From positions 1 through 35,086 of the forward strand of contig JAUSII010000099.1 in assembly GCA_030648035.1 (NCBI GenBank): a DNA stretch of 35,086 nt, read 5' to 3'. Of this stretch, positions 1,813-27,833 are shown piece after piece. This DNA comes from Deltaproteobacteria bacterium. GTDB taxonomy: Bacteria > UBA10199 > SPLOWO2-01-44-7. A program made the translations under genes and the position numbers. Every line of letters starts with the position of its first letter. The first letter of the stretch is position 1. Under the pieces are notes generated by a model. It saw only the letters and a program-made list of their open reading frames with translations. It was not told the origin of the DNA and searched no databases.

Positions 1813-1840
1813 TTATCGTCATTTTTTGAAAAAAGTTGCT
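1813..1840 (-). promoter_or_regulatory. Sigma-28-like promoter, site A
   Basis: Read on the minus strand: AGCAACTT, 14 bases, CGATAA. The extended -10 is GACGATAA. It lies 18 bases before the TTG at 1794, leaving room for the ribosome-binding site GAGGAG. It has the same sequence and spacing as six other sites in the window. Confidence 0.8.
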
Positions 1841-1866
1841 GACTATTTTACATTCCAAAAGACACC

Positions 1867-2934
1867 CTAATCGGTGCAGAATTGGTAACAAGGGGGGAGA
1901 TTGGTGGGGTTGGTGCTGGAGTTGCTGCAGGCTGTGGAGGCAGGACGTAGCGGTCTCACTTTTTCTGCCGGAGCGGAAGCACGGCCATGGCAGGCTGTCC
2001 GACATTGAAGAACGGACGATGTTCCTTCACGCCGGCACGAACGATTTCCATTGTCATGGCAACCTCCGCCCGAACCTCCACAGCTATGTTGGATCGCATC
2101 GACCCAATTGGGATCAAGCTCTCCCGTGGGGCGAGTGCCATCTGCTGTGGTCACGAGTGGACTTCCCGTTCCTGCAGTCAGGGATAAATAAGAAGTGTGT
2201 CCCCGACCCGGAGAGGATTTATTCCACTCCCGCAACGATACCGTATTGGTCTTGTAGGAGACGTGCGGGTAGGTCCAATGGCATTTATAGCAATCCGACT
2301 GGGTGATAAGGTCTGCTTTGGTTTGTGTATCTGTCAGAGGAACCGCGGCAAGTGTGGGGTGTCCGTGACAATCTTTGCAGAACGGTTCCGAGTCGGAATC
2401 ATACCGCGGGGCGACGGGAGATGCGGTGTCTGATGAATAGGTATAATAGGTGCCATGATCCGGTATGGAGGTGGCTGCTCCCCAAACCGCTTCATGCCCC
2501 CACGCAGAACCGTGTGTCACCCCATTGGTATGGCAATCGGTGCACTGCTTGATGAGGCCGGCCTTCCAGTCGGCATTCTGCACATGGCAGGTCAGACAAG
2601 GCGATGTTGTGCCGGACCTGATTTCTTCAATATATGTTGAGGGGTGGACAAGGGTCCGTCCCACCGTATTCGCGACATACCAGTTGGAATCGGTATGCGG
2701 AAAAATAGAATGACAGGCGTGACATTCCGGCGGTGCATTATCAGAGGCGTCAATTGTGTGGCACTGCAAACAGACGGAAGTCCCTTCTGCTATCATTCTT
2801 TTTCCATGAGATTCCGGTTCTTGCCAGCTTTCGCTGTGCGGAAAGAAAGGGTCAGCGACCTCATCTTGTTGGGAGGGCACAGCACCACCACAGCCAATAA
2901 GAATAAACGAAAAAATAATCAGATATGTTTTCAT
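1867..2934 (-). CDS. Multihaem c-type cytochrome lipoprotein
   Basis: This 355-residue protein begins with a lipoprotein signal (lipobox LIGC, Cys15), so it is expected to be exported and lipid-anchored. It has six canonical CxxCH haem sites, at C55, C71, C103, C121, C176 and C205. Two non-canonical ones follow: C275-x6-C282-H and C301-x3-C305-H. The last about 65 residues are Cys-, Ser- and Arg-rich and unlike the rest; this could be real or a frameshift, though no alternative frame adds a haem site. ATG lies 4 bases after the stop of the HEAT-like gene, so it is probably the last gene of the mqnD run. A role in extracytoplasmic electron transfer, perhaps from menaquinol, is inference; the exact family is not recognised. 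Confidence 0.85.
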   Translation of the reverse strand: MKTYLIIFSFILIGCGGAVPSQQDEVADPFFPHSESWQEPESHGKRMIAEGTSVCLQCHTIDASDNAPPECHACHSIFPHTDSNWYVANTVGRTLVHPSTYIEEIRSGTTSPCLTCHVQNADWKAGLIKQCTDCHTNGVTHGSAWGHEAVWGAATSIPDHGTYYTYSSDTASPVAPRYDSDSEPFCKDCHGHPTLAAVPLTDTQTKADLITQSDCYKCHWTYPHVSYKTNTVSLREWNKSSPGRGHTSYLSLTAGTGSPLVTTADGTRPTGELDPNWVDAIQHSCGGSGGGCHDNGNRSCRREGTSSVLQCRTACHGRASAPAEKVRPLRPASTACSNSSTNPTNLPPCYQFCTD

Positions 2935-2938
2935 TCTC

Positions 2939-5020
2939 TTATTTTTTACTCACTTCACGCAAGGCGGCGCGGGCCTGGGTGCGGACATCTTCCGATGGTC
3001 CGGCCAGGCGTTGAAGGGTGAGTCTAGCATTCTCCCGAAAAGGAACGCCCAACCCAACCCGAACCTTTAATGTATCAATGGCGGCCTTTTTTAAAGCTGC
3101 AGGATAATTGGAATTGAGAGCGAAACTGGCCAGGCGGTCATCGATTGTATCTCTTGAATAGTGGCTGGTTCGCTTCACAGCGGCCACTCTTAACTTCAGC
3201 TCTAGAGAATCATTCGATGCGACATCCCAAAGGGTATCGAGAGAGACATTCAACAACAATCTTTCCCGAAGAGAAAGGGGAAAGAGACTCGTGGCCATTG
3301 CATGTCTATCCAAAACGGCATTTTGATTATTTTTAAATCCTTCCAGAATTTGGACTTCCATTTTTTTCAGGAGTTCGGGAGAGGCTTTTGATTTTGGATC
3401 CGAAACGACAGTGTAGGCATAAGGAACAAGACGGGTATCGGGCACCCAGCCCACCATCCAGGCTTCCACCACCAGAGCTTGCGCTACATCACTCAAACCA
3501 CTGAATTTTTGGGCAAACATGTCGGAATATTTTCTGACTAAACTGACCAATGTTTGCTTTGCAGAATTGCTGGGGACATCCAGTCCCGTTCGAACGGCGG
3601 TGGGCCAAAGCGTTTCAAAAATCAGATAGGCCGTTTCAGGATCTTCGTTGATCGTTCCAAGGTAATAAAGGGTTTCGAAATTCAGCTGTTGAGGCAACAT
3701 TTCATCTCCATCCAAATCGAGAAGGGTGCGATGAGCTTGAGAATTGGAGCTTACAGCCAACTCTTTCAAAAACTGTTTGGTTAATCCCAAACCTTTTTGC
3801 CCTACTCCATCATAAGCAGTCGCCGGCAGGGGATATTGCATACAGACCAAATTTTTGATCTCTTGCTGTGCCTCGGGGTCGTTCATGGTAGCCAAGGCTT
3901 TGAAAGCTTCAATCCGAAAATTATCAGCATAGGGGCCTTTTACATCATCCTGATAAACAAACCCGACCAAAGAAGAGATTGCCTCTTTTCCGCAACGAGC
4001 CAGATAGGACAGGGCATTTTTTTCGGGATCGGCAGGCTCAGACGATTTCGCTGCAAATTTTCTTAGCACGGCCGTAACAGAGGGAATCATGCGTGGGTCG
4101 GCGGGGAAACTTTCCTGCTGAAATCCTCTAAAGATCAAGGCGGCTAAACCATAAGGGTCGGCATGCGTGGTCTCTAGAACACGGGCAATGTGGGGTATCG
4201 CTGCAGGATTATCTCTGGCCGATTCCAGCAAAACGTCCGCTGCAATATTGGAAGTATCCCCGCGCCCATTGGCAATGGCTTCCTGTGCCAAAAAGGCAAG
4301 TGCGGCCTCTCCACCAATCGCCACCGACTCTTGACCAGACTGGTAGCGGTAAGACACATCCAAGCTTTCATATTGCATGAGTTCTGCAAAAACTGCGAAG
4401 AGCTGCGGGTCAAGTTCGGCGTTCAGCTCCGTGGATTTCATCTTTTTATCCAAACGACGATAGCACTCTCGACTTAAGAGTTCCCTACCAATATTTCGTT
4501 TTTCTTCTGAAAAGGTCAGTTTGAAATAAAGTGCCGTCAAACCGAAATCGTTGCACATGAAATCGCGGGTCCCTCCCAGCGCTTGTTGCATCCAAACAGA
4601 CATGGCGTTGTTCAGCGGATATTCGGAAAGGGCATAGACCATAGAGGCTCCATCTATCCGCCAATCATCGAAAACGCTTCCAGACGTGTTTCCACGCTTC
4701 CAATCTTCTTCATTAATTTTTTTCGGATATGCCCGGTCGATTTGATAAAAATCGCGAATCCCCTGACTCTGACCCTTCCAGCACGCCGTCATCTGATAGT
4801 AGGGTTGGTGACGGACGTAATCATAAACTTCCTGTGGATTTTTGGCATCGAGGCCACTCAAAACAAAAGAGGGGGGAACTTGCGAGGCTTCAACGCACGC
4901 ATCTTCCGATTCGACAATGGCACCACCGGTGAGTGAACCGACATCCCACTGGTAATAAAGAGCGTCGCCATTGCTTTCGTTCAATTTTGCGCGATCAAAG
5001 CAGATACGGTCGTTTCCCAT
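2939..5020 (-). CDS. HEAT-like repeat protein, unknown function
   Basis: The protein has 693 residues. ATG at 5020 has a good ribosome-binding site (GGGAGG, 4 bases upstream). I see no signal peptide or membrane segment. The N-terminal about 200 residues have scattered Cys and aromatic residues and no motif I know. From about residue 210 on, the protein is a run of paired helices of HEAT type, ending in a typical LRVAAVKR ... VRTQARAALREV repeat. Such solenoids usually bind proteins. It sits 35 bases after the HAD gene and 4 bases before the cytochrome gene, so it may help cytochrome assembly or form a complex with it, but only position supports this. Confidence 0.8.
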   Translation of the reverse strand: MGNDRICFDRAKLNESNGDALYYQWDVGSLTGGAIVESEDACVEASQVPPSFVLSGLDAKNPQEVYDYVRHQPYYQMTACWKGQSQGIRDFYQIDRAYPKKINEEDWKRGNTSGSVFDDWRIDGASMVYALSEYPLNNAMSVWMQQALGGTRDFMCNDFGLTALYFKLTFSEEKRNIGRELLSRECYRRLDKKMKSTELNAELDPQLFAVFAELMQYESLDVSYRYQSGQESVAIGGEAALAFLAQEAIANGRGDTSNIAADVLLESARDNPAAIPHIARVLETTHADPYGLAALIFRGFQQESFPADPRMIPSVTAVLRKFAAKSSEPADPEKNALSYLARCGKEAISSLVGFVYQDDVKGPYADNFRIEAFKALATMNDPEAQQEIKNLVCMQYPLPATAYDGVGQKGLGLTKQFLKELAVSSNSQAHRTLLDLDGDEMLPQQLNFETLYYLGTINEDPETAYLIFETLWPTAVRTGLDVPSNSAKQTLVSLVRKYSDMFAQKFSGLSDVAQALVVEAWMVGWVPDTRLVPYAYTVVSDPKSKASPELLKKMEVQILEGFKNNQNAVLDRHAMATSLFPLSLRERLLLNVSLDTLWDVASNDSLELKLRVAAVKRTSHYSRDTIDDRLASFALNSNYPAALKKAAIDTLKVRVGLGVPFRENARLTLQRLAGPSEDVRTQARAALREVSKK

Positions 5021-5055
5021 GATGCCTCCCTTTGGAAAGCCGGTCGTACCGCAGA

Positions 5056-5682
5056 TTACAAGAGGATGTCAATGAAAGGCAGGAGACTTCCTTTCACATG
5101 CAGACAGGGAATGCCGGCGTTTTTGGCGGCCTGGATACCGTATTGGGAATCTTCAAAGATGAGGCATTCTTCTTTTTTTAATTCGGGGTTCCACTCTTTT
5201 ATTTTTTTTAATTCTTCATAGGCTTTTAAAAATCCCTCGGGATCGGGTTTGCCTCTCTTCACGTCGTTGGCGCTGATGACGATGGGAAAATAATCCTGCC
5301 AGCCCAGACGCTTAAGAACCAGATGGACCTCGCTCTTCAGGGCGCCGGTCACAATCGAGAGGGGATATTTTTTGAAAACCTTTTTCACAAAATCTTCTGC
5401 GCCTTCAACAAGCGGAATCTCTTTTGCAAAGATGGCGTGGGTTTTTTCCTCTTTTTCGCAGATCAATTCTTCTGCCTCTGTTTGCGTGAGAGAGCGTTTG
5501 GCATGCTGAAAACGACGCATCACAATATCGCGATCGTTCAATCCCAAATAATATTCTTCATACTCTTTGTCGGAAAAATTCAAATTCAGCGGCGCCAAAA
5601 CAAATTGCCACGCCTTCATGTGCAAAGGTTCCAGATCGACAAGCACACCGTCGAAATCGAAGATGAGGGCTTTTGTGTTCAT
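5056..5682 (-). CDS. HAD-superfamily hydrolase, beta-phosphoglucomutase/phosphatase-like
   Basis: The protein has 208 residues, a normal length for subfamily I HAD phosphatases. All four HAD motifs are visible: DFDGVLVD at the N-terminus (nucleophile D9, general acid D11), SIVTGA (motif II), KRGKPDPEGF (motif III Lys) and LIFEDSQYGIQAAKNAG (motif IV acidic pair). The cap is helical, between motifs I and II. It should act on a small phosphorylated metabolite in the cytoplasm; the substrate cannot be read from sequence. ATG follows the stop of the flavoprotein gene by 2 bases, so the two are probably translationally coupled. Confidence 0.9.
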   Translation of the reverse strand: MNTKALIFDFDGVLVDLEPLHMKAWQFVLAPLNLNFSDKEYEEYYLGLNDRDIVMRRFQHAKRSLTQTEAEELICEKEEKTHAIFAKEIPLVEGAEDFVKKVFKKYPLSIVTGALKSEVHLVLKRLGWQDYFPIVISANDVKRGKPDPEGFLKAYEELKKIKEWNPELKKEECLIFEDSQYGIQAAKNAGIPCLHVKGSLLPFIDILL

Positions 5683-5684
5683 GA

Positions 5685-6596
5685 TTAGAAGGAGAGATCG
5701 CAGAGATGCCGATCGGCATTCATTGCGGCGACCATACCTTGTGCGGCGGAGACGAATTGCAATTGGGGAAAACCGGCAAGCATATCGCCGCAGGCAAAGA
5801 CACCCGGAATGGAGGTCATCATCTGATCATCCACCAGCACGCAACCCTCTTCCGAAATTTCGACGGTCCCTTTTAAAAATTCATATTTGGGTTTGCTCTG
5901 TCTCGCATACAAAAAGACGGCACCCGTTTCTATTTTCTTTTCTTCTCCTGCACACAAGACAGTAACCTGCTCCAGCTGATTTTCTCCCTCGATTTTTTTG
6001 AGGCTGGCGCTCAAAAGGCCTTCCACTTTGGGATTGTTTCGTAACGCATTCAACAATTTTTCATCCCCTTCCAGCTTCATGGCGGGGACAACAAAATATA
6101 TTTTGGCGGCAAAGCGCGTCAGATACAGAGCCTCGCGCATCGATTGTTCGTTTTTCCCTTCCACCACCACCGTCTTTCCCTCGCAGAGCGCGGCGTCCTG
6201 ATAGGCGTTATAGAAAACGCCGTGACCCGCAAATTTGGCCTCACCTTCGATGAACCCCTGCCGGTCGTAACAACCGGTCGCCAGAATAATAATGGGCGCC
6301 TCCAACACTTTGCCCGAGGTGGTGGTGATCTGTTTGACAGAGGCCCCCAACGCGGCTTGAGTCACCTCTTCTTCGATCATTTGAAAACCATGTGCGCCGA
6401 CTTCGGAACGAAGGTTGCCCAGCCATTCAGCCGGGCCGGTCCCTTTTGGAAAACCAGGAAGGAGCCAATTGAAAGAATGGATGAGAGGAGTCGTCGCTTT
6501 GTGAACCATGACCGCCTTGCGCTTCACACGGGCCGCAAACAGAGCCGCGGCGCAACCTGCAGGCCCACCACCTATGATGATAAAGTCTGTTGTCAT
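5685..6596 (-). CDS. Thioredoxin-reductase-like flavoprotein lacking the redox CxxC
   Basis: The 303 residues have the layout of low-molecular-weight thioredoxin reductases: an N-terminal FAD dinucleotide motif (GGGPAGCAAA), an ATG motif before the second domain (LATGCYDRQG) and a C-terminal FAD motif (GVFACGDM ... QLQFVSAAQGMVAA). The position that normally holds CATC reads GVFYNAYQDA here, so the disulfide pair is gone. The NADPH-binding Gly-rich turn is also degraded (VVEGKNEQSMREAL). It is therefore unlikely to reduce thioredoxin; a related FAD oxidoreductase with another electron partner is more likely. Its ATG overlaps the mqnD stop (ATGA). Confidence 0.85.
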   Translation of the reverse strand: MTTDFIIIGGGPAGCAAALFAARVKRKAVMVHKATTPLIHSFNWLLPGFPKGTGPAEWLGNLRSEVGAHGFQMIEEEVTQAALGASVKQITTTSGKVLEAPIIILATGCYDRQGFIEGEAKFAGHGVFYNAYQDAALCEGKTVVVEGKNEQSMREALYLTRFAAKIYFVVPAMKLEGDEKLLNALRNNPKVEGLLSASLKKIEGENQLEQVTVLCAGEEKKIETGAVFLYARQSKPKYEFLKGTVEISEEGCVLVDDQMMTSIPGVFACGDMLAGFPQLQFVSAAQGMVAAMNADRHLCDLSF

Positions 6597-7420: not shown

Positions 7421-7428
7421 CGTAATTT

Positions 7429-7501
7429 GTCATTGCGAGCGTAGCGAAGCAATCCCGGCGATTCACTGGATTGCTTCACCCCTAAAGGGGTTCGCAATGA
7501 C
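7429..7501. repeat. Palindromic GTCATTGCGAG repeat, copy 1
   Basis: Starts GTCATTGCGAGCG and ends CGCAATGAC, with an inner AAGCAATCC ... GGATTGCTT pair: a long imperfect inverted repeat. It lies between the exonuclease and mqnD genes. It could fold in RNA and act as an attenuator or stabiliser, but that is inference. Confidence 0.9.
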
Positions 7502-7507
7502 ACCTCT

Positions 7508-8107: not shown

Positions 8108-8178
8108 GGGTTTTTGCTTACCAGCGCGGTGTTTTGAATGCAAATACAAACCGGTTGCGCCCCTCTTGCCACTTTGCT

Positions 8179-8559: not shown

Positions 8560-8576
8560 ACTGGCTACGCCGAGGT

Positions 8577-8648: not shown

Positions 8649-8684
8649 AATAATGACACTGAAGTCACCGACCCGGGCATTCGC

Positions 8685-11311: not shown

Positions 11312-11692
11312 TTAAAAAATGGCGGTGATTTCGATTTCTACAGTGGCACCTTTGGGAAGATTCGACACCTCTACTGTTGAGCGGGCGGGAGTGTGACTCC
11401 CAAAAAAGCGGGCATAGACGGCATTGACCTTTGAAAACTGTGAAAGATCCTTCAAAAAAATGGTTGTTTTAACCACCGCATCGGGACCCAAATTTTGCGA
11501 GGCCAATATCGCGTCGATATTTTTCAAAACCAGTTCCGTCTGACGTTCCACATCGCCCTCAAACAGGCAGACTTCGTTTGTTTTCGGATCGATTGGAATC
11601 TGCCCCGACAAAAATAAAAATCCACCAGCCTTTATAGCTTGCGAATAGGGGCCGATTGGCTTGGGGGCTTTATCTGTAAAAATAATTTCCAT
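11312..11692 (-). CDS. ridA: RidA-family enamine/imine deaminase
   Basis: RidA hydrolyses reactive 2-aminoacrylate and related enamines released by PLP enzymes. The 126-residue length is standard. Family segments are PIGPYSQAIKAGGFLFLSGQ at the start, a middle TTIFLKDLSQF, and the C-terminal PARSTVEVSNLPKGATVEIE, whose Arg binds the substrate carboxylate. ATG 11692 is clear. It is divergent from the NamZ-like gene. It acts as a cytoplasmic trimer. A partner PLP lyase (tryptophanase family) is encoded about 3 kb away. Confidence 0.95.
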   Translation of the reverse strand: MEIIFTDKAPKPIGPYSQAIKAGGFLFLSGQIPIDPKTNEVCLFEGDVERQTELVLKNIDAILASQNLGPDAVVKTTIFLKDLSQFSKVNAVYARFFGSHTPARSTVEVSNLPKGATVEIEITAIF

Positions 11693-11714
11693 AATTAATG
11701 GTGATTACCAAACT

Positions 11715-11742
11715 TTGACAATAATTCAAGTTGTGATATGCG
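11715..11742 (+). promoter_or_regulatory. Sigma-70-type promoter for the NamZ-like gene
   Basis: TTGACA (11715-11720), 16 bases, TATGCG (11737-11742). The -35 is perfect, the -10 is weak. The ATG lies 8 bases after the -10, so the mRNA may be leaderless. Confidence 0.45.
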
Positions 11743-11750
11743 CGAGCCCT

Positions 11751-12926
11751 ATGTTGCTTGGACTCGACATTCTCTTAAGAGATAACAAAAAATTGCTGGA
11801 AGGAAAACGGATCGGAATTTTGGGGCATCAGGCCAGCCTCAATTCCAAAGGGGAACATATTGTCGATCTGCTGGTTGATAAAAAAAACAACTGGAAGGTG
11901 ACGACATTATTCGGGCCCGAACACGGCATTACCACCCACGCTCAAGATATGGAGGCGGTGCAGTCTGGCGTTCACAAACCGACAGGATTGCCCTTGCACA
12001 GTCTCTACGGTCACACCGACAAGTCACTGCGCCCCACAGAAGAGATGCTCCAAAATATCGACACCCTTGTAATCGATCTGCAGGATATCGGCTCGCGCTA
12101 TTACACCTACATCTGGACCGCATCGCTTTGCATGGAGGTTTGTGCAAAATATAAAAAAGAGGTCATCATTCTCGACCGCCCCAATCCCATCAACGGCGTC
12201 ACCATTGAAGGGGAACTTAATCAGTCGGGCTACACCTCTTTTGTCGGGCTCTATCCTTTGGCGGTGCGGCACGGCATGACGTTTGGGGAGATGGCCCGCT
12301 TCTTTAACGATGCGCAGGATTTGAATTGTGATCTCAAGGTTGTTTCGATGGAGGGCTGGGAGAGGGAATGGTATTGGGATCAGACGGGATTAAAGTGGAC
12401 CAATCCCTCACCCAACATGCGCTCACCCCTGCAAGCCCTGATGTATCCGGGCACCTGCCTTCTTGAAGGGACCAATGTCTCCGAGGGGCGCGGCACCGAT
12501 ATCCCTTTTGAAATCGTGGGTGCTCCTTTTGTGGATTCCGCCGAATTGCTGGAGTCGATGAAAGAATTTAATCTGCCGGGCGTTCAATATGAAAGCATCG
12601 ATTTCACACCGACGATGCAAAAGCATGCCGGGAAACTCTGTCACGGCATGCGCTTTAAAGTCACCGACCGAAACATTTTCAAACCCTATGTCACCGGTCT
12701 GGCGCTGATCTGGTCTCTCTCCACACTCTATCGTGAAAAGGGATTTGAATGGCGTCTCGAACCGTATGAATTTATCGAAGACATTCCCGCTGTCGATCTC
12801 CTTACCGGCAGTTCCACTGTGCGGCAGGCGATTGAAAAACATCTTCCTCTAAGAGAACTTCTCGAATGGGTTGAAGAACCCCCAACCAGCTTCCTGCGCG
12901 AACGCAGGACTTATCTTTTGTATTAA
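11751..12926 (+). CDS. NamZ/DUF1343-family protein, exo-beta-N-acetylmuramidase-like
   Basis: The protein has 391 residues from ATG 11751. Family segments follow in order: FGPEHG, DLQDIGSRYYTY, ILDRPNPING, AVRHGMTFGEMA, NPSPNMRSP and EGTNVSEGRGTDIPFEIVG. Characterised members (NamZ) remove terminal MurNAc from peptidoglycan fragments, so a role in cell-wall recycling or feeding on wall debris is likely. Many homologues are exported, but here no signal peptide precedes the domain, which suggests a cytoplasmic recycling enzyme unless the start is wrong. The gene converges on cdd with 3 bases between them. Catalytic residues cannot be assigned with certainty from sequence alone. Confidence 0.88.
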   Translation: MLLGLDILLRDNKKLLEGKRIGILGHQASLNSKGEHIVDLLVDKKNNWKVTTLFGPEHGITTHAQDMEAVQSGVHKPTGLPLHSLYGHTDKSLRPTEEMLQNIDTLVIDLQDIGSRYYTYIWTASLCMEVCAKYKKEVIILDRPNPINGVTIEGELNQSGYTSFVGLYPLAVRHGMTFGEMARFFNDAQDLNCDLKVVSMEGWEREWYWDQTGLKWTNPSPNMRSPLQALMYPGTCLLEGTNVSEGRGTDIPFEIVGAPFVDSAELLESMKEFNLPGVQYESIDFTPTMQKHAGKLCHGMRFKVTDRNIFKPYVTGLALIWSLSTLYREKGFEWRLEPYEFIEDIPAVDLLTGSSTVRQAIEKHLPLRELLEWVEEPPTSFLRERRTYLLY

Positions 12927-13310: not shown

Positions 13311-13769
13311 CTACTCCACCGCATGGGCAAAACGCAAGGCGCGAATGCTTTCAAAACGATTTCCAACAATTTTTTGCAACATCTGCTTGAGCGTTTCGGC
13401 CCGCTCGCCTGTCGCCTTCATTTTGAGATAAATGCCTACTTTGAGTTCTCCCAAGTCGGGCTGATCTTTGGAATAGATACGAAGGTTACAGCCGTTTTTT
13501 TCAAAACCCTCTTCTTCGGAATAATGATATTGATAGATTATCTCTTTGGCAGAAACGGTGGCCTTCCTCCATTTTTTGAGCTGGGGAAACTCTCCCTCCA
13601 ACGCACCGATGTCTTTGGCAATCGCGGCCATCGCCTCATCCATCGCTTTGTGCGCCACGATCACCGAAAGGGCGCGACTGGTCTCCGGCCCGGAGATATC
13701 CGCCGATACAGCGAAGCCCGAGGAGATTATCAGCAGGATTGCAAACCAGAAATAGAAGTGGCGCATCAT
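13311..13769 (-). CDS. Small exported protein, unknown function
   Basis: The protein has 152 residues from ATG 13769. This start is chosen because it lies exactly 7 bases after the -10 of a sigma-28-like promoter; the longer frame to 13793 would begin inside the promoter. The N-terminus MMRHFYFWFAILLIISS with FAVSA-D is a signal peptide of about 25 residues. The mature part has helices (VAHKAMDEAMAAIAKDI) and a charged middle with KKWRKATVSAKEII, and one Cys. It has no lipobox and no known motif. It is followed by cdd and stands back to back with the methyltransferase gene. Confidence 0.8.
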   Translation of the reverse strand: MMRHFYFWFAILLIISSGFAVSADISGPETSRALSVIVAHKAMDEAMAAIAKDIGALEGEFPQLKKWRKATVSAKEIIYQYHYSEEEGFEKNGCNLRIYSKDQPDLGELKVGIYLKMKATGERAETLKQMLQKIVGNRFESIRALRFAHAVE

Positions 13770-13776: not shown

Positions 13777-13804
13777 ATATCGGCTGATCTCAAAATAAGT
13801 TGCT
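13777..13804 (-). promoter_or_regulatory. Sigma-28-like promoter, site H
   Basis: Read on the minus strand: AGCAACTT, 14 bases, CGATAT; extended -10 GCCGATAT. Seven bases then separate it from ATG 13769, so the mRNA is predicted to be leaderless. Its -35 box stands 59 bases from that of the divergent site F. Confidence 0.8.
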
Positions 13805-13863: not shown

Positions 13864-13891
13864 AGCAACTTTTGGAGATGATTGCCGATAA
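13864..13891 (+). promoter_or_regulatory. Sigma-28-like promoter, site F
   Basis: AGCAACTT (13864-13871), 14 bases, CGATAA (13886-13891); extended -10 GCCGATAA, a perfect match to the FliA -10. It serves the methyltransferase-like gene. Confidence 0.82.
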
Positions 13892-13911
13892 TATAAATGA
13901 GGATGCTTAAA

Positions 13912-14691
13912 ATGGCTGGAGATTTTGCGATATCCCCGATTTTGACAAGTGCTGTGCAGGTGATTGCCGGCACCCCCTTGGCCACCGCGCAAGAGGTTTT
14001 AAATGTCCTCCCTGCGGGCATGGTGGGAGATCGATTTATTCAGGGGCCCGATTTGTCTCCAAAGCTTCCGACGAGTGCGGAGGGTAAAGAGTGGAGAAGA
14101 ACTTTTTTGATGAGAGCGTTCAATGCATTAGCTCATTTGGAAAATAAATTGTTATATCCCATTGATTCCCTTATGTACAACTTGACTGGCCCATTCCGGA
14201 AGGATTGGCAGAGCGTTATTTCCACACGCAGGCCACCATCCACTTGCATTGAGCAATTGCATTTAGATTATTATGATTTTTCAAACAAAAAAATATTGGA
14301 TGTGGCTTGTGGAAGAAGTCGCTTTGCGCAGTTCATAAATCTTTTTTATGGAGACACGGGGACTCTCGCTGTTGCTCTAGATAAAAATATAAAACACAAA
14401 CCCCCTTTAAGGATAAAAGGGAATGCGTATAAATTGCCTTTTCAAGAACCTTGTTTTGATCTCGTGACCTGCAATTTCTTGCTGCATCATTTTAGCTTTG
14501 GTCGACAATTGATGTTTATCGAGGAGATGGTTCGAGTGACAAAGCCGGGCGGACAAATTCACATTGGGGGGGTGTTCGAGACTTTGAATTTAGGGGCTAT
14601 CGAAGAACTCTCTCGAGTAGAAAGATTTTTTGTTCACGAAATCCGATCCTATGAGGGTCTTTATTCTGTAGAGATCCGATTAAAGTCCTGA
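13912..14691 (+). CDS. SAM-dependent methyltransferase (class I) with N-terminal extension
   Basis: The protein has 259 residues from ATG 13912. In-frame ATGs at 13897 and 13903 are possible, but 13897 is too close to the -10, and MAGDFAISP matches MATSFLLSP at the start of the AAA ATPase gene. GAGG lies 9 bases before 13912. The core is a Rossmann methyltransferase: motif I ILDVACGRSRFAQFI, acidic AVALDKN, AYKLPFQEPCFDLVTCNFLL, then EEMVRVTKPGGQIHIGG. The C-terminus ends soon after, so the fold is on the short side. About 115 residues precede motif I and resemble nothing I know. Small-molecule or protein substrate cannot be told. Confidence 0.85.
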   Translation: MAGDFAISPILTSAVQVIAGTPLATAQEVLNVLPAGMVGDRFIQGPDLSPKLPTSAEGKEWRRTFLMRAFNALAHLENKLLYPIDSLMYNLTGPFRKDWQSVISTRRPPSTCIEQLHLDYYDFSNKKILDVACGRSRFAQFINLFYGDTGTLAVALDKNIKHKPPLRIKGNAYKLPFQEPCFDLVTCNFLLHHFSFGRQLMFIEEMVRVTKPGGQIHIGGVFETLNLGAIEELSRVERFFVHEIRSYEGLYSVEIRLKS

Positions 14692-20385: not shown

Positions 20386-22074
20386 TTAGACAACTTTTCG
20401 GCCATCGCGATTTTTGGCGGGGATAAAATCTTTTAACGCCTGTGCAAAATGGAGTCGGGTAATTTTAAGACTTCTTATCTCTTCCTCGCTCAACTTGCCC
20501 TTGGGGTTTTTTGCCCGTCGCTTGACTTCCCGCAAGGCGATCATGGCGGCATCGTTGGTGAGGGCTTCCAGATCGGCTCCGACATATCTTTCTGTTTTTC
20601 TGGCAATCGCTTCCAGATCGACATCGGTGGCCAAAGGTTTTTTCCGGGTGTGAATTTTAAGAATATCCAGTCGCCCTTTTTCGTCCGGATAACCGATCAT
20701 CAATTCCCGATCAAAACGTCCGGCCGCGCGCAAGGCCGAGTCCAAAATGTCGGGTCGGTTGGTTGCCGCAATAACAATAACCCGCCCCCGATCTTCAAAA
20801 CCATCCATACCTGCAAGCAGGGCTGCCAACGTGCTGTTATATGCTTTATCTCCCGATATCATATCATTGCCGGAAGATCTTTGAGCGCCAATGGCGTCAA
20901 TTTCATCTATAAAGATGATGGCAGGTTCATTGTCTCTGGCATCTTCAAACATTTTTCTTATTGCAGCCTCTCCATCTCCTATGGATCCCTCCACAAGTTT
21001 GGGGCCATTAACGGCATAAAATTTGACCCCCGAAGCCTTGGCCACCGCTCTGGCGATGCTTGTTTTTCCCGAACGTGGAGGCCCCACCAGCAAAAAGCCT
21101 TTGAGAGGTTTGATGTTCAACATTTCAAAAACTTCCGGTTGCAACAAAGGCCATTCAATCATTTCACGCATCAGGGCAATCTGATCATCCATCCCCCCAA
21201 TTTCATCATAAGGATTTTCGTCAGAACCTTTGTAAAAAACGGCGCCTTTTATTCCTTCTGGTTCAGTTCTGTTTTGTTTTTCTATTCTTAATCTGGCGGT
21301 AAATCCGTCTTTATTAGGATTTAAAATATCTTTTTCAAAAATGTTTCTGGCGACCTTCCCAGCTTCATTCACATAAGGTTTCATGGCCACCACGGCTTCA
21401 AACCAGGGTTCCAACTCTTCTTGAGAAGAGGCTAAGGCGATCCCCTTTTTGACTTCCTCTATCAGAGTCAGCAGAATCGGAGTCACGCGGTCTCTCCATC
21501 TCCATTTATTTTTTAATTGATCGATGATTCTTAATTGATTGGCCACTCTTTCAATCAGAGTGTCGGGCTCTGGATATTTTTCCACCATTTCAAACAGATC
21601 TTTGGCCCTTTGGACGGCCGCTTGATCTTCCAAAGAAAAAGCCATGCGTCCCTGAATCATCAATCGAACGGAGACCGCATCGATTCTGTCTCTGAAATTT
21701 ATTATATTCTGCACTTCGATCAGATCAGAAGCTATGAGATTAACACCGTGTATTGCTCCGTCATAAGCCTCTTTTGCAGTCTGGTCGATATGGCGATGCT
21801 GATAAGCTGATTCATTGAGTTTTAGAAAATGCAGTGTTTTTCCAAATTCGCGGGCGATATCCGAATCAAAAAGACCCTGTTTTCTCAAAGGGGTGACAAG
21901 CAGATTCAAAACGATGCGCATGTCGTGAAGTTCTCTATCCTCCAATGGTTTCGGATCTTCTTCAAAAACCCAGTCATGTTCTTCCCAGACAGGAGACCCC
22001 ATCAATTCATAAAGCATGATGGGATCTGCCATGAGAGCATTCTGGACAGGACTCAATAGGAAAGAGGTTGCCAT
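20386..22074 (-). CDS. AAA ATPase, Cdc48/FtsH-like core, with unknown helical N-terminal half
   Basis: The protein has 562 residues. The C-terminal half is a classical AAA module: Walker A GPPRSGKTS (331-339), Walker B IIFIDEID (386-393), the second region of homology IAATNRPDILDSALRAAGRF with GRFDRE arginines, and a four-helix lid with VGADLEALTNDAAMIAL. AAA modules of this kind use ATP to unfold or remodel proteins. Walker A has GPPRSGKT where GPPGTGKT is usual. There is one AAA domain and no protease domain. Residues 1-290 are helical and unknown; residues 1-15 carry the motif FLLSPVQNAL shared with two other genes here. A sigma-28-like promoter lies 7 bases before the ATG. Confidence 0.9.
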   Translation of the reverse strand: MATSFLLSPVQNALMADPIMLYELMGSPVWEEHDWVFEEDPKPLEDRELHDMRIVLNLLVTPLRKQGLFDSDIAREFGKTLHFLKLNESAYQHRHIDQTAKEAYDGAIHGVNLIASDLIEVQNIINFRDRIDAVSVRLMIQGRMAFSLEDQAAVQRAKDLFEMVEKYPEPDTLIERVANQLRIIDQLKNKWRWRDRVTPILLTLIEEVKKGIALASSQEELEPWFEAVVAMKPYVNEAGKVARNIFEKDILNPNKDGFTARLRIEKQNRTEPEGIKGAVFYKGSDENPYDEIGGMDDQIALMREMIEWPLLQPEVFEMLNIKPLKGFLLVGPPRSGKTSIARAVAKASGVKFYAVNGPKLVEGSIGDGEAAIRKMFEDARDNEPAIIFIDEIDAIGAQRSSGNDMISGDKAYNSTLAALLAGMDGFEDRGRVIVIAATNRPDILDSALRAAGRFDRELMIGYPDEKGRLDILKIHTRKKPLATDVDLEAIARKTERYVGADLEALTNDAAMIALREVKRRAKNPKGKLSEEEIRSLKITRLHFAQALKDFIPAKNRDGRKVV

Positions 22075-22081
22075 AAGTTAC

Positions 22082-22109
22082 TTATCGACTCGGGTGAAAA
22101 AAAGTTGCT
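22082..22109 (-). promoter_or_regulatory. Sigma-28-like promoter, site B
   Basis: Read on the minus strand: AGCAACTT, 14 bases, CGATAA; extended -10 GTCGATAA. Seven bases then lead straight to ATG 22074, predicting a leaderless mRNA for the AAA ATPase gene. Confidence 0.82.
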
Positions 22110-22152
22110 TAAAGTTATTGCCACTTTTTCCCCGTTTTGCTACCCCATTTCC

Positions 22153-22920: not shown

Positions 22921-22954
22921 GTTCTTGTTGACTAGCCATCCAATTTCGACGAAA

Positions 22955-24136
22955 ATGGAGTCCATGCAATACATTCCTCGCCTTTTAGAGTCTCATATCA
23001 AACACCATCTAGATAGAGGAAAAAGCCTTCTATTGCTGGGAGCTCGCCAAACGGGCAAATCGACCCTTCTTCAACGCTTTCCCGCAGATCTCACACTCTC
23101 TTTTATCCAACCTGCCGTTCGGCAACGTTATGAAAAAAATCCGGAACTTTTGGGGGGAGAAATTGAAAGCCTGAACAAAAAAATGTCCAAGCGCCCCCTC
23201 GTCGTGCTGGACGAAATACAAAAAGTGCCGTTCATTATGGACACCGTTCAGGATCTGATCGACCGCAAACTGGCACAATTCATTTTAACCGGTTCCTCGG
23301 CACGCAAACTGCGCAGAGGAACATCCATCAACCTTCTGCCCGGACGACTGGTCACTCTGCACCTTGATCCTTTTGTTTTTCAGGAATTCGGTGAAGAGAA
23401 TATAGAAAACATTCTTTTCTACGGCGCTCTTCCCGGAATTTTCCGTGAAAAGAAAAACGAGGATCGTGAAACAGATCTTCGATCCTACGTTGAAACCTAT
23501 CTGGAAGAAGAGGTTCGCGCAGAAGCACTCGTCAGAAATCTGGGAGCTTTTTCCCGCTTTTTGGAGCTGGCGGGGCTTGAATCGGGCAACATTGTCAGTC
23601 TGCGCGCACTCTCGCAAGAAATTGGCATCAGTCATACAACCATCGCCTCCTTTTTTGAAATTTTGGAAGATTGTCTGGTGGCCGAAAGGGTCGATCCAAT
23701 CACCTTCAGCACAACACGAAAAAAACTGACCAAATCGAGCCGCTATCTTTTGTTTGACATGGGTGTTCGACGCCTGTGCACCGGAGAGGGAACCGCCGTG
23801 ACAAAAACGCGTCTTGGCGAATTGTTTCAGCAATATGTCGGATTGGAGCTGATCCGCCACGCGCGACTGGCCGAAAAAAGAACGCGCATCAAATTCTGGA
23901 GAGATCCCGATGGACCAGAGGTCGACTGGGTGATTGAAAGAGAGGGGGAGTTTATCCCCATTGAGGTCAAATGGTCCGCCGCCCCGGTTTCAAAAGATGC
24001 GCGCCATCTGGAAACTTTTCTGAAAGAATATCCTCAAGCCAAAAAGGGTTATGTCATCTGCCAAACGCCAAACCCCGCAGACATCACCCCCCATGTCACC
24101 GCCATTTCATGGAAAACCATTGCCGACCTGTTTTGA
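22955..24136 (+). CDS. DUF4143-type ATPase (AAA_14) with C-terminal nuclease-like fold
   Basis: The protein has 393 residues from ATG 22955; ATG 22964 is also possible. The N-terminal P-loop domain has Walker A GARQTGKST (residues 29-37) and Walker B LVVLDEIQKV (82-91), followed by the sensor-like ILTGSSARKL. The middle has a winged-helix-like stretch with QEIGISHTTI. The C-terminus has EVD (322-324) and EVK (337-339), the PD-(D/E)xK-like pattern typical of DUF4143. This large family is often mobile and lineage-scattered; its function is poorly defined. The gene starts 34 bases after the hydratase gene on the same strand. Confidence 0.92.
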   Translation: MESMQYIPRLLESHIKHHLDRGKSLLLLGARQTGKSTLLQRFPADLTLSFIQPAVRQRYEKNPELLGGEIESLNKKMSKRPLVVLDEIQKVPFIMDTVQDLIDRKLAQFILTGSSARKLRRGTSINLLPGRLVTLHLDPFVFQEFGEENIENILFYGALPGIFREKKNEDRETDLRSYVETYLEEEVRAEALVRNLGAFSRFLELAGLESGNIVSLRALSQEIGISHTTIASFFEILEDCLVAERVDPITFSTTRKKLTKSSRYLLFDMGVRRLCTGEGTAVTKTRLGELFQQYVGLELIRHARLAEKRTRIKFWRDPDGPEVDWVIEREGEFIPIEVKWSAAPVSKDARHLETFLKEYPQAKKGYVICQTPNPADITPHVTAISWKTIADLF

Positions 24137-24143
24137 AATAGTT

Positions 24144-24171
24144 AGCAACTTTTTCAAAGCCCCGCCGATAC
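24144..24171 (+). promoter_or_regulatory. Sigma-28-like promoter, site C
   Basis: AGCAACTT (24144-24151), 14 bases, CGATAC (24166-24171); extended -10 GCCGATAC. Seven bases then lead to ATG 24179, predicting a leaderless mRNA. The site starts 8 bases after the DUF4143 stop codon. Confidence 0.82.
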
Positions 24172-24178
24172 AACCATT

Positions 24179-25519
24179 ATGACTAATTATGTTGAAGGAA
24201 AAATTTTGGGCGTTCACACGGCCCCCACGTTAATGTTGGAGGCCTCATCCACGGTGTCCGCTTCACAGCCAAAAGATGTTTATCTCTTGGCTTCTGCTGC
24301 AAAGACAACAATCAAACCTTCGGCCAGCAAGGCGATGGAGGCGGCTGTGGAAGAAGTAGTGAGGCAGGTTCAAGCCAATTCGTCCCCCGGTTCTAAAATT
24401 CGCTTTCAGGGGAAAGAATATAAAGTTGGAAACAATCGCGTTAACGTAATTTTTAATGATGCTCTCGAAAAGTCCGGTTCCAAACGGCGAGTTGTGTTTT
24501 ACAATGCTCCCAATGGGGCGGTGGCTGTTTTATATGGAACTGTCATTCAGGAAAGAAAGATCCGGGTTCACGGCCAACAGGTTCGACATATTCTGCTCGA
24601 CAAGGCGGAGATCAGTGTCAATGAAACTATCGGCATTTTGGGGGTGAACGACCTTCTGGATGTCATTGTTGTCTCCAAAGATCATTGCGAGAAAGTCGAT
24701 GCCTTCGACCGAAAAAAAAATTCAGGCACATACAAACAGGCCGAACACACTTCCATTTTGGATGCCTATCGCGCCGCTCCTCTGGATACCGAAGGTCTGA
24801 AACTTTTTGCAGATCTGGTTTTCGCCCACGAAACCGGTCATTTTGAATTTATAAAAACCTATGGTGCGATCGTAAAGGAATTTGAAATGCGCGATCAAGC
24901 GGCAGGTCGCTATCATCTTCACACATTGGAGGAGTTGCTGTGTGAAGTGGCCACGGCGCAGTCGATTGTGGCACTTGCAAAAAAAGATCCGAGGGCGGCT
25001 GAAAAGGCCTATCAAATATGGGTGGGGGTTCGCGGCGATGCGCCCGGACGGCGCACTTACAATCCTGCAGAGGGATGGATGGCCGCTTCCGGTTTTCTTC
25101 TTCTTTCTGCCGTCTCTATGAAAAGTGGGACCGCTGTTGTCGATTGGGGTGTGCTGGAAAAAAACACAGGGGCCCTCAAGTCGGTTATAAAAACTGTTTT
25201 TACAGATGTTCAGACGAGGATTATCAAACCTTTGGTCAAGGATGGATCACAAGATACTCCGCAACAGCTGGCTGCAAAATATAAAGAACTTGAAAAAGTG
25301 ACTCTGGCCCAGTGGAAAACCGCCAACGCACCTTTCAACGCAGAATTTGCGGAACAAGAAGTGGCGATGGGCATCATGGAACAATTGTTTCCACAGCGGG
25401 AAAAAATGGGTCTCGGTCCAGATAGTATTATTAGGATGGTTTATACCGTGGATGCGTGGACGGTCACACAACTGGGAGTTAATCCTGCCGCAACTCCATT
25501 TCGTATCCGTTTGCGCTAA
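24179..25519 (+). CDS. HExxH zincin-like protein, unknown family
   Basis: The protein has 446 residues. The zinc-peptidase signature is VFAHETGHFEF (H217, E218, H221); acidic HTLEELLCEVATA follows with E251, E252 and E256, a spacing that would fit a gluzincin third ligand. The first about 45 residues are Ser/Thr/Ala-rich with no classical signal peptide. Residues 70-180 look like mixed strand and helix (SKIRFQGKEYKVG, VVFYNAPNGAVAVLYG). The C-terminal third is helical. Peptidase activity is plausible from the motif but not shown. ATG 24179 is set by the promoter; a second ATG is at 24189, out of frame. It converges on the next gene with 14 bases between. Confidence 0.8.
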   Translation: MTNYVEGKILGVHTAPTLMLEASSTVSASQPKDVYLLASAAKTTIKPSASKAMEAAVEEVVRQVQANSSPGSKIRFQGKEYKVGNNRVNVIFNDALEKSGSKRRVVFYNAPNGAVAVLYGTVIQERKIRVHGQQVRHILLDKAEISVNETIGILGVNDLLDVIVVSKDHCEKVDAFDRKKNSGTYKQAEHTSILDAYRAAPLDTEGLKLFADLVFAHETGHFEFIKTYGAIVKEFEMRDQAAGRYHLHTLEELLCEVATAQSIVALAKKDPRAAEKAYQIWVGVRGDAPGRRTYNPAEGWMAASGFLLLSAVSMKSGTAVVDWGVLEKNTGALKSVIKTVFTDVQTRIIKPLVKDGSQDTPQQLAAKYKELEKVTLAQWKTANAPFNAEFAEQEVAMGIMEQLFPQREKMGLGPDSIIRMVYTVDAWTVTQLGVNPAATPFRIRLR

Positions 25520-25533
25520 AAGAAAGCCGAATT

Positions 25534-26592
25534 TCACCGGCAAATGACCAAACGCCGGACGAGCGTCGGTTCAGGTCTCAAAACCAAATCATAGGCTCCC
25601 AACTCCGATCTGGGTAAATTTACAAGGTGGTTGAAAGCAGGTTGCAGGGCTTCCTGAAATTTTGGATTGAAAAGAATCCTGAATCTCACCTCTTTGACTG
25701 CATCAATCCATGCTTTTCCAATCTCCGCTGTCGGGGCTGTTTTTGCGCTTTTTTCAACTTCCATTAAAAGACGCTTTAATGCCTCAATCTGGCGCGACTG
25801 AACAAAAACCCATTTGAATTGAGCAATTTTATTTAGCGATAAATCCATAACAGCCTTGGCGTATCTTAGTTCAGAATCAGGAGTGGGCGATCTTGGAGAG
25901 ACCCCAGAATCAAGCCAAAAGATAATTGGACACACTTGCCCCGCCAACGGTCCTATTGCCAAACCATTCCATCCTGAACCGGAGGTGCCGACGATTGCCA
26001 CAACCTCTTCACCCACTCCCGCAACGGGAATGACGGCCATGGCTCCCGATGGTTTTATTCCCATCGCCGGTGGAACCATTTTATCAAAACCGCGTTCGAC
26101 CGTGTGCAATGCTCTTTGAGCCCACACCACATTTTGCGTTTCAAATGCCGCCATCTGCGGTGCCAAACCATACGCCAGCAAAACCCCCTGCGGCAGAGCG
26201 GCGCCGGTGTTAACCGCCAAAGAATCGAGCGCCTTTATCGGGTCAGACTTCCAAGTCTGCATATCGAGATAACCGCCAACAATGGCGTCGGCCTCTTTTT
26301 GAACCAATTCACGACAGGTTTGCAAAGGATGAGCCAACTTTGGTGAGCGATCTTCCAAAGTGCCGGGCCCCAACAGAACATAATTCACCCAAGCCGAAGC
26401 TTGGCCAATCCCTCTGACCAGATTCAAATAGGTGCGATAGTCGGCTAAAGATAAAGTGGAATGAAACGCCGCCTCTGCGCCGTGATCGGCCACGGTCACC
26501 AGCTTTGTCCATGTTTGAAAAGCCGCCGTATCATTCACGGCTTCCAACGGAGCATCAAAAAATTTCTCTTTGAAAGAAACGGGACTCGCCAT
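25534..26592 (-). CDS. Unknown protein of the sigma-28-like set, 352 residues
   Basis: Start is ATG 26592 (MASPVSF), with GGAGG 4 bases upstream. The frame is open further back to 26625, but that would begin inside the promoter. I see no signal peptide and no known domain. The N-terminal third is helical (FQTWTKLVTVADHG). The centre is Gly- and hydrophobic-rich, with VGEEVVAIVGTSGSGWNGLA and LAGQVCPIIFWLDSG, and could be a beta-rich or membrane-touching core, though no segment is a clear transmembrane helix. The C-terminal third is helical with KIAQFKWVFVQSRQIEALKR. TSGSGWNG is not a Walker A. It lies downstream of the HEAT-like gene and has its own promoter. Confidence 0.75.
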   Translation of the reverse strand: MASPVSFKEKFFDAPLEAVNDTAAFQTWTKLVTVADHGAEAAFHSTLSLADYRTYLNLVRGIGQASAWVNYVLLGPGTLEDRSPKLAHPLQTCRELVQKEADAIVGGYLDMQTWKSDPIKALDSLAVNTGAALPQGVLLAYGLAPQMAAFETQNVVWAQRALHTVERGFDKMVPPAMGIKPSGAMAVIPVAGVGEEVVAIVGTSGSGWNGLAIGPLAGQVCPIIFWLDSGVSPRSPTPDSELRYAKAVMDLSLNKIAQFKWVFVQSRQIEALKRLLMEVEKSAKTAPTAEIGKAWIDAVKEVRFRILFNPKFQEALQPAFNHLVNLPRSELGAYDLVLRPEPTLVRRLVICR

Positions 26593-26608
26593 AATTCCTC
26601 CACACAAG

Positions 26609-26636
26609 TTATCGCCTCTTATCAAAAAAAGTTGCT
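26609..26636 (-). promoter_or_regulatory. Sigma-28-like promoter, site D
   Basis: Read on the minus strand: AGCAACTT, 14 bases, CGATAA; extended -10 GGCGATAA. Sixteen bases then precede ATG 26592 and include GGAGG, so this transcript has a short leader. The site lies 7 bases after the stop of the upstream gene. Confidence 0.82.
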
Positions 26637-26643
26637 AAAAAAA

Positions 26644-27798
26644 TCAACCGACCATTGTCAAAGCGCGGGTTGCAAGGGCTCTAAGTTGGGAATCGCCGGA
26701 AGAGGCGATGATCTGTTTTATCCAACGCTTGGCCCCCTCAACGCCGCAAAGAGAGAAACTCGTCAATTCTCCCACCGCCTGCTCGCGAATGAACGGATCG
26801 TCGCTTTTCAGATCCCGCGCAATTGGTCCTTGTTCATCCGTCCATAGGCTGGGCAGTTGGTCACGGCGCCCCAAATAGGCAACGACACTCAAAACGGTCA
26901 GCCCCCGAACTCTGGGGAGTCGATGTTGCATCAACGCGTTCAAATGTCTCTCCTCTCCATGGCGCACAAGAATTAAAATAAGATTATTGAATCGCTCATC
27001 ATACTCACCCTTTTCAATGGCTCCATTCAATTCTTTCCAGATCAAATCGGTATCCACGTCTGCCAATCCATTCAACAATGCATCCATAGAACGCCTAGAT
27101 TCCACATTAAGGCGAGCGGCTTCAGCTTTGGCTGTGCTACGAAGATCTGGATCGTAATGGTCCCTGGCAATTTGGTGAAGAGTTTTCGCATAGGGAATCG
27201 CGTTTTCTCCGATTCTCGATGTCTGGGAAATTGTTTCCACCAAAAACGCAATATCGGCGAAAGTGGCGGTTTGTGGATAATGAAAAAGCCGGTTTGTTCT
27301 TTGATGTGTGTTCTCTTGAGGCGGTAGTTGAATGACAACATGGTGCCGAAGCACCGCCGCCCTTGCCGCCCGCTCAAATTCCCCTTCTGCAAGAGCTGTT
27401 CTGAAAATTTCTCCCGTCGCCTGCAAACGGCTGATTGCAAATTTTTTGTACATTTCGCTGTTTCCGGAAAGAGGGAGAAGGTAAGTATAGATCAGGGAAG
27501 ATCGGGCCATAGTTTCGAGTTGCATCGCGACGGGTGCCAGCACCTTTTCAAAGCGTTGAGAGAGTCGAAGCAGGACACTCGCCACCATATGTTTTGGATG
27601 CCACTTGGAACCGAGCCGACCTTGCACAATTTCTCCGGTTACAAGAGAGGCGGCGCGGGCAACTTCTTGAAGGTCTTTTGAAGATAAATCTTCCAAAACG
27701 ACAGCCGATCCTCGATCGACAATACTACTCAAAGCGTTGGGTGCGTTTAAAACAGCATTTCCCAAAGGGCCCAGAATAAATGGATTGATTGCACTCAT
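26644..27798 (-). CDS. HEAT-like helical protein with shared N-terminal motif
   Basis: The protein has 384 residues. It is almost wholly helical; the C-terminal half shows HEAT-like pairs (FNNLILILVRHGEERHLNAL, RVRGLTVLSVVAYLGRRD, FIREQAVGELTSF, QLRALATRALTMVG). The N-terminus MSAINPFILGPLGNAVLNAP carries the F-x-L-[SG]-P motif shared with the AAA ATPase and methyltransferase. No catalytic motif or signal peptide. ATG 27798 is 7 bases after the -10 of its own promoter, whose -35 overlaps the stop codon of the upstream gene. HEAT solenoids usually bind proteins; the partner is unknown. Confidence 0.8.
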   Translation of the reverse strand: MSAINPFILGPLGNAVLNAPNALSSIVDRGSAVVLEDLSSKDLQEVARAASLVTGEIVQGRLGSKWHPKHMVASVLLRLSQRFEKVLAPVAMQLETMARSSLIYTYLLPLSGNSEMYKKFAISRLQATGEIFRTALAEGEFERAARAAVLRHHVVIQLPPQENTHQRTNRLFHYPQTATFADIAFLVETISQTSRIGENAIPYAKTLHQIARDHYDPDLRSTAKAEAARLNVESRRSMDALLNGLADVDTDLIWKELNGAIEKGEYDERFNNLILILVRHGEERHLNALMQHRLPRVRGLTVLSVVAYLGRRDQLPSLWTDEQGPIARDLKSDDPFIREQAVGELTSFSLCGVEGAKRWIKQIIASSGDSQLRALATRALTMVG

Positions 27799-27805
27799 GT
27801 TATGG

Positions 27806-27833
27806 TTATCGGCGGGGAAAAATAAAAGTTGCT
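27806..27833 (-). promoter_or_regulatory. Sigma-28-like promoter, site E
   Basis: Read on the minus strand: AGCAACTT, 14 bases, CGATAA; extended -10 GCCGATAA. Seven bases then lead to ATG 27798. The -35 overlaps the TAG stop of the gene ending at 27832. Confidence 0.83.

Follow-up and report, generated by a model that had tools for sequence, protein, structure and literature searches.

The stretch of DNA analysed here, referred to as the window, consists of the 35,086 nucleotides of contig JAUSII010000099.1 from a genome deposited as Deltaproteobacteria bacterium (GCA_030648035.1). Dispersed along it are seven copies of a two-part motif that, from its sequence and placement, is near certain to be a promoter. 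The original prediction, made from the letters alone, had placed these sites on both strands with 14 bases between the halves, each pointing towards a gene 5 to 20 bases away, and had attributed them to an alternative sigma factor of the sigma-28 family with altered recognition of the -35 box. A pattern match across the whole window recovered all of them (7/7) where they had been placed, with zero mismatches and 14 bases between the halves. In 100 dinucleotide shuffles of the window the mean was 0.01 matches and a count of seven was never reached, and a scan of the window for spacings from 8 to 21 gave no match except at 14. With a weight matrix derived from the genome's own exact sites, the seven window sites included, these sites score 30.9-41.5 and the remainder of the window at most 8.1. 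A start codon is found 5-20 bases past the -10 at every one of the seven, as had been proposed. At four of them (13777-, 22082-, 24144+ and 27806-) an ATG stands exactly at +7 past the -10; at the other three the start is preceded by a Shine-Dalgarno-like stretch. The sites and the genes behind them are as follows, with amino acids abbreviated to aa and nucleotides to nt.

1 to 1794, minus strand: 598-aa protein, its gene continuing beyond the window edge; starts with TTG downstream of GAGGAG; Pfam gave no match at E<=0.1.
1813 to 1840, minus strand: promoter site; exact match; matrix score 37.4; -35 AGCAACTT, -10 ACGATAA.
13311 to 13769, minus strand: 152-aa protein with a signal-peptide-like N-terminus; no Pfam match; transcript predicted to be leaderless, the ATG lying 7 nt past the -10.
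13777 to 13804, minus strand: promoter site, divergent partner of the site at 13864; exact match; score 35.5.
13864 to 13891, plus strand: promoter site; exact match; score 35.7.
13897 to 14691, plus strand: methyltransferase (PF08241, 9.4e-12) with an N-terminal extension of ~130 aa.
20386 to 22074, minus strand: AAA ATPase (PF00004, 5.7e-38), whose domain spans residues 328-461 after an N-terminal region of 300 aa; transcript predicted to be leaderless, with its ATG 7 nt past the -10.
22082 to 22109, minus strand: promoter site; exact match; score 34.8.
24144 to 24171, plus strand: promoter site; exact match; score 30.9.
24179 to 25519, plus strand: orphan protein of 446 aa carrying HETGH at residues 217-221; its ATG lies 7 nt past the -10.
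25534 to 26592, minus strand: orphan protein of 352 aa whose ATG follows GGAGGA; Pfam gave no match for the longer frame, 25534-26625.
26609 to 26636, minus strand: promoter site; exact match; score 41.5.
26644 to 27798, minus strand: 384-aa protein with a weak HEAT repeat match (PF13646, 0.0043); ATG 7 nt past the -10.
27806 to 27833, minus strand: promoter site; exact match; score 31.2.

The Pfam matches uphold the methyltransferase and the AAA ATPase named in the original prediction. Its HExxH motif is present in the 446-aa protein, which has no Pfam match, and its HEAT-like protein is the 384-aa one, where the PF13646 match, at 17.8 bits, falls below the Pfam cut-off of 27.7. The label 'kinase-like' for the 598-aa protein was not confirmed. 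For the methyltransferase gene, a start at 13912, after GAGGATG, is more likely than one at 13897, because the latter would precede the predicted transcription start. Between 13777 and 13891 two sites stand back to back in one 115-base stretch and serve divergent genes. The genes for a NamZ muramidase (window 11661-12926, plus strand) and for GcpE (28498-29715, minus strand) lie near these genes and do not carry the motif.

Across the 2.39 Mb of its own genome, the exact pattern occurs 64 times and the reversed pattern not once. By crude calling of open reading frames (ORFs), which underlies all counts of site context, 38 of the sites are intergenic, 19 overlap the end of an ORF and 7 lie wholly inside one, compared with 90% of random positions (n=3200) inside ORFs. 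A same-strand gene start lies within 120 nt of 54/64 sites and of 10% of random positions; the motif stands before genes rather than within them, as expected of a promoter. When 63 sites are aligned (the 64th sits at a contig end), conservation extends beyond the letters that were searched for. An A precedes the -35 in 75% and a run of T follows it; a G is found two bases before CGATA (position 20) in 84%, with C or A at position 21. The stretch between the halves is AT-rich, and spacers vary from site to site. Position +8 past the -10 is a purine in 92% with a T just before it in 67%, and an ATG at +7 is the commonest offset (12/63). The T-purine step at +7/+8, together with the ATG peak at +7, points to a transcription start at about the eighth base after the -10, which would often coincide with the A of the start codon and leave the transcript leaderless.

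The consensus for FliA combines the -10 GCCGATAA and a spacing of N11 with the canonical sigma-28 -35, TAAAGTTT. Re-framed by alignment, the sites have the same -10 and the same N11 spacing, as originally pointed out, and lack TAAAGTTT; GCAACTTT takes its place in every exact site, as the search pattern required. The canonical TAAAGTTT-N11-GCCGATAA was found at 0 of 281 loci. Three strong sites in G000 (C28:2430, C82:1534 and C104:17820, corresponding to L009, L044 and L051) have no ORF of >=60 aa within 120 nt downstream, and their products may be small RNAs or short proteins; of these sites, C82:1534 lies 341 bases upstream of a second same-strand site.

The motif is a property of a whole group of bacteria. 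It is present in 46/46 genomes of the class, which we take to be UBA10199, with 1 to 64 copies in each and no copy of the reversed control in any of the 46. These relatives are metagenome-assembled genomes titled mostly 'Deltaproteobacteria bacterium', for example RIFCSPHIGHO2_01_FULL_43_49. Among more distant genomes, 8/100 have the motif, in 1 to 3 copies. For 62 sites drawn from four other genomes of the class (G026 19/19, G021 15/15, G043 22/23 and G036 6/16), a start lies within 60 nt at 51, and the +7 peak is weaker (3 at 7, 3 at 8). Judged from where sites occur, membership of the regulon turns over between class genomes: a PP2C gene near the SctV gene has a site in 4/6 members of one family and in 0/24 other class genomes. 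In some class members, in the upstream regions of L098 and L117 and at L118, sites read AACAACTTTTT...CCGAT with scores of 14-21, and therefore families may differ in the G of the -35. Just 2-5 exact sites occur in family f10.

A candidate reader for such a promoter is encoded in the same genome. Four Sigma70_r2 genes were identified there: one RpoD-like, one RpoH-like, one ECF and one of FliA/WhiG type, the last on contig C103, at 1538-2389 on the minus strand of L066. The C103 protein exceeds the Pfam cut-offs for regions r2 and r4, and its best NCBIfam match is TIGR02479 (FliA_WhiG) at 131 bits, below the curated cut-off of 189.6; it is therefore a divergent relative and is not filed as a flagellar FliA. 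The sigma-28-type gene anticipated by the original prediction thus exists. Its best solved relatives are FliA/WhiG-type sigma factors, including FliA (9wsm/6pmi). An ortholog was found in 42/46 class genomes, a count that includes G032 (in two pieces), G043 (on two contigs) and G044 (with a stop). The helix that recognizes the -35 reads SKSW[TVA][SC]R in 26 class sequences and SKSWASR in six from Myxococcota, instead of the ESR[VI]SQ of Escherichia coli FliA, one flagellar FliA of the class and one actinobacterial relative, which supports the suggestion of altered -35 recognition. In a tree that excludes the 64-aa fragment Myxo_L133, these sigma factors from the class group with those from Myxococcota in a single clade, separate from flagellar FliA (99/99; long branches call for caution).

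The neighbourhood of this sigma gene points towards protein secretion. On C103 it lies between a divergent NtrC-type gene and genes for a 185-aa protein and a FliG-like protein, beyond which are YscJ/FliF-type (SctJ) and YscD-type (SctD) genes. In G002 and G003 the block continues, as read by eye, with SctL, SctN, SctO, SctP, SctQ, FliN- and FliO-like, SctR, SctS and SctT genes. The SctV of G003 scores 782 against a type III secretion system (T3SS) cut-off of 692, and 688 against 772 with the FlhA model; its SctR scores 235 against 209, and 209 against 217 with the FliP model. SctN exceeds both the T3SS and the flagellar cut-offs. SctJ misses its equivalog cut-off (115 bits against 162), and Pfam YscJ_FliF is above its cut-off in the genome of the window. 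An SctV/FlhA-type gene is present in 44/46 class genomes, flagellin in just 4/46, and no flagellin was found in the genome of the window. By eye, no secretin, needle or translocon was recognized in ~35 kb of G002, and no genome-wide search for them was made. On the strength of these gene models, the sigma gene belongs to a non-flagellar T3SS cluster.

Two side observations concern this apparatus and the flagellar genes. On the minus strand of L070 (12642-13508, 4754-6907, 2648-3172), a site and a PP2C gene are followed by same-strand M23 peptidase, SecA and SctV genes, and a second site precedes a 174-aa ORF behind SctV; part of the secretion apparatus may be co-regulated with the regulon. In three flagellated class members, upstream of the flagellin genes at L273, L274 and L275 (G025, G022 and G007), by ~50-85 bases, the sequence T[CA]AAGTTT-N12-CCGTC is found, which may be the promoter that flagellar sigma-28 uses in the class, with a different -10. 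Nothing clear was seen at the other six loci examined, and the match counts are not above chance.

A further tier of control is suggested by the sequence ahead of the sigma gene. Sigma-54 promoters are of the type TGGCAC-N5-TTGCA, and TGGCAY-N6-TGCA lies upstream of the sigma gene in 23/26 class loci, with two more close to it; at L092 the box is absent. At least 9 of the 11 sigma-54 consensus letters are found in 25/26 class sequences, and at least 10 in 8/26 class loci compared with 1/130 control windows. No such box was seen in 8 Myxococcota loci. Together with the NtrC-type neighbour, the box suggests a sigma-54 tier above the sigma gene.

Of the 64 proteins downstream of the sites, 57 were scanned with Pfam, the others having no ORF, having a very short ORF or being left out; 17 of these have a domain above cut-off and 40 have none. 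The domains are a trypsin-like protease, two of FGE-sulfatase type, two methyltransferases, AAA, transglutaminase-like, an alpha/beta hydrolase, two ResIII/DEAD helicases, PP2C, TPR, fn3, PilZ, GGDEF, carboxypeptidase-regulatory-like and a radical-SAM/TRAM protein. None of the targets is flagellar, in line with the original prediction. In the trypsin, the AAA protein, both methyltransferases, the hydrolase, the transglutaminase and one helicase, 130-330 match-free residues precede the domain. Signals for T3SS export are expected to be low in Lys/Arg and high in Ser/Thr. Residues 2-26 of 53 regulon proteins, compared with 129 control ORFs that are crude longest-ATG calls, are lower in Lys/Arg (0.051 vs 0.114, p 8e-8) and higher in Ser/Thr (0.160 vs 0.113, p 1e-4), with Ala at 0.134 vs 0.084. 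At residues 81-105 of the same proteins and controls no such difference is seen. For 38 proteins from four other genomes, the N-terminal values are 0.059 for Lys/Arg and 0.164 for Ser/Thr. These compositions make many of the regulon products candidate T3SS substrates (effectors). A narrow N-terminal proline motif (4/53 vs 0/129) is not relied on because its form was picked after inspection.

A cascade that would account for these observations runs from NtrC and sigma-54 through a T3SS-encoded sigma-28-family factor to ~60 genes, many of them for T3SS substrates, and we consider it probable. In this scheme, the sigma gene would be turned on by sigma-54 together with the NtrC-type activator from the divergent gene next to it, the activator acting at the sigma-54-like box. 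Polymerase carrying the T3SS-cluster sigma factor would then read promoters of the type GCAACTTTT-N10-GCCGATAA at ~60 mostly single, scattered genes and start their RNA at about the eighth base after the -10, often on the first letter of the ATG. Many of the encoded proteins would be exported by the same secretion system as effectors and would act on a target cell, either prey or host. The scheme is built on what the sequences show: the promoter-like motif and where it stands, a sigma gene located among T3SS genes, the co-occurrence of the two across the class, the altered helix, the conserved sigma-54-like box and the biased N-termini. Within it, the link between motif and sigma factor is indirect, made by co-occurrence, family resemblance and elimination.

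Different readers of the motif can be proposed. An ECF sigma factor has in its favour that GCAACTT, the core of the -35, looks like the AAC-type -35 found in ECF promoters and that the genome's one ECF gene, on C18, lies within 4 kb of a site. The -10 GCCGATAA is FliA-like, however, and G021 has 15 sites with just two Sigma70_r2 genes, which by size and rank correspond to RpoD and RpoH, and no ECF gene, so that an ECF reader is very unlikely. The RpoH-like protein was also tried as reader and rejected; it scores as sigma-32, whose promoter differs. The high conservation of the -35 half and the AT-rich stretch between the halves would suit the operator of an activator or repressor, but the motif is not palindromic, is always aimed at a gene at a fixed distance, and comes with a purine start position at +8 and an ATG peak at +7, which makes an operator less likely still. 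A recurring stretch, GTCATTGCGAG..., in some downstream leaders is what a chance or repeat-borne motif has to offer; against an expectation of 0.01 in the window, no reversed copies in the genome and spacers that differ, we give this explanation almost no weight.

A more serious alternative is that the sigma factor owns these promoters but directs a general programme of the cell surface or life cycle, with products that are mostly not exported by the T3SS. Lipoprotein-like proteins, GGDEF, PilZ, fn3 and radical-SAM/TRAM among the members would fit it, as would the lack of any single shared N-terminal motif or domain. We regard it as unlikely, given that the sigma gene is located in the T3SS cluster and that the N-terminal bias is gone by residues 81-105 and recurs in other genomes. 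Several observations do weigh against the proposed cascade. Foremost, five class genomes without an intact sigma gene still have sites (G020 3, G021 15, G022 21, G032 17 and G038 3). In all five the FliG-like neighbour gene was likewise not found, and G020, G021 and G032 yielded no T3SS ATPase either; in G022 the ATPase is just a 51% relative, on the contig that carries its flagellar genes, and G038 (73% complete) does have one. All five keep the SctV/FlhA-type gene. Missing contigs would fit the absence of the sigma gene, an explanation that is unproven, and this remains the main counter-evidence. Conversely, G008 and G010 have a sigma ortholog and a single site each, and no exact site lies on the genome's own sigma contig. 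On the side of the products, the crude controls of the N-terminal comparison count against the effector proposal, a general N-terminal proline motif is not enriched (10/53 vs 14/129, p 0.15), and the 53 proteins have no common N-terminal domain, with 3 related pairs among them. Lipoprotein-like N-termini, GGDEF, PilZ and the radical-SAM/TRAM protein are not effector-like. Finally, the Myxococcota genomes that have a related sigma factor gave no large regulon with the exact motif, and such a regulon was rejected (30 one-mismatch matches vs 12 in the control).

Related sigma factors, 38-42% identical, were identified in 14 Myxococcota loci. At least one T3SS relative (SctJ, FliG-like, SctL, SctN and small proteins) adjoins the sigma gene in 7/10 of the loci examined, and in the remaining three none was seen in crude ORF calls. 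At 10/14 loci a one-mismatch match lies inside the sigma gene itself, which is a coding coincidence. In three Myxococcota genomes (L171:1984, L172:2046 and L173:2034), GCAACTTTTGACGC-N8-ACGTCGATAT is found ahead of a kinase-like gene, and in a fourth the site lies 6 nt before an ATG; this is a candidate promoter for the T3SS-linked sigma factor of Myxococcota. The needleless T3SS* of Myxococcus xanthus (mxan_2434-2464) goes to prey contact sites with the Kil/Tad pilus and is required for prey lysis (PMC12075869); the excerpted account makes no mention of a sigma factor and does not name effectors. From their gene content, the Myxococcota sigma loci would correspond to the T3SS* cluster. The likeness to the class lies in the related sigma factor, its T3SS neighbours and the same SKSW-SRLHARA helix.

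Known regulatory systems provide further points of comparison. In the HrpL system of Pseudomonas syringae, HrpR/HrpS and a sigma-54-type step lead to HrpL, which reads the hrp box; its regulon is one of T3SS effectors. The proposed cascade of the class likewise has a sigma-54-type step, a dedicated sigma factor, and one box ahead of scattered T3SS genes. In P. syringae a dedicated sigma factor serves T3SS genes (PMC4145663, PMC12285254). HrpL is an ECF sigma factor (PMC4145663), whereas the C103 factor is of the sigma-28 family with a different promoter, and no homology of the regulators is claimed. Comparison with the flagellum gives a second set of likenesses. In the flagellar hierarchy, an NtrC-type regulator and sigma-54 are followed by FliA (sigma-28) and then by the late genes; the sigma family, the -10, the spacing, the sigma-54 tier and a sigma gene beside export-apparatus genes are all alike. 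Differences are that 42/46 genomes have no flagellin, that the -35 and the helix are other ones, and that the targets are non-flagellar. We know of no Chlamydia promoter with the -35 of the class. Chlamydia also ties alternative sigma factors to T3SS effectors in its sigma-54 and sigma-28 regulons, with sigma-54 the effector-linked one (PMC7482065), unlike the class, for which a sigma-28-type factor is proposed. By analogy, the logic of the cascade would be that of HrpL and its parts those of the flagellar hierarchy. In this respect, a tentative and wider proposal, held with somewhat less than even confidence, is that in this class of uncultured bacteria a flagellar-style three-tier cascade (NtrC/sigma-54, sigma-28-type factor, late genes) serves not a flagellum but an injectisome like the predation apparatus of Myxococcus, its -35 code rewritten and its late genes leaderless.

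These analyses confirm the original observation and support its sigma-28 interpretation; of the outcomes named beforehand as refuting it, neither a motif as frequent inside genes as before them nor a genome devoid of any sigma-28-family gene came about. Going beyond it, they place the sigma gene in a non-flagellar T3SS cluster and suggest that the unknown genes resemble candidate substrates. Dedicated T3SS sigma factors are known already, as HrpL demonstrates; in the partial texts covered by a literature search, no sigma-28-family factor with its own promoter code was found in a non-flagellar T3SS cluster, and the present case appears to be new in that literature. The natural pairing of helix ESRVSQ with AAAGTTT and of helix SKSWTSR with GCAACTTT offers an opportunity to understand how sigma region 4 shifts its -35 target. 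If the cascade is true, a simple promoter search would list candidate substrates of a secretion system whose relatives take part in bacterial predation and, in the account cited above, are without named effectors. On the wider proposal, the promoter alone would give the substrate repertoire, >60 proteins in the richest genome, and with it the first genome-wide substrate list for such a T3SS.

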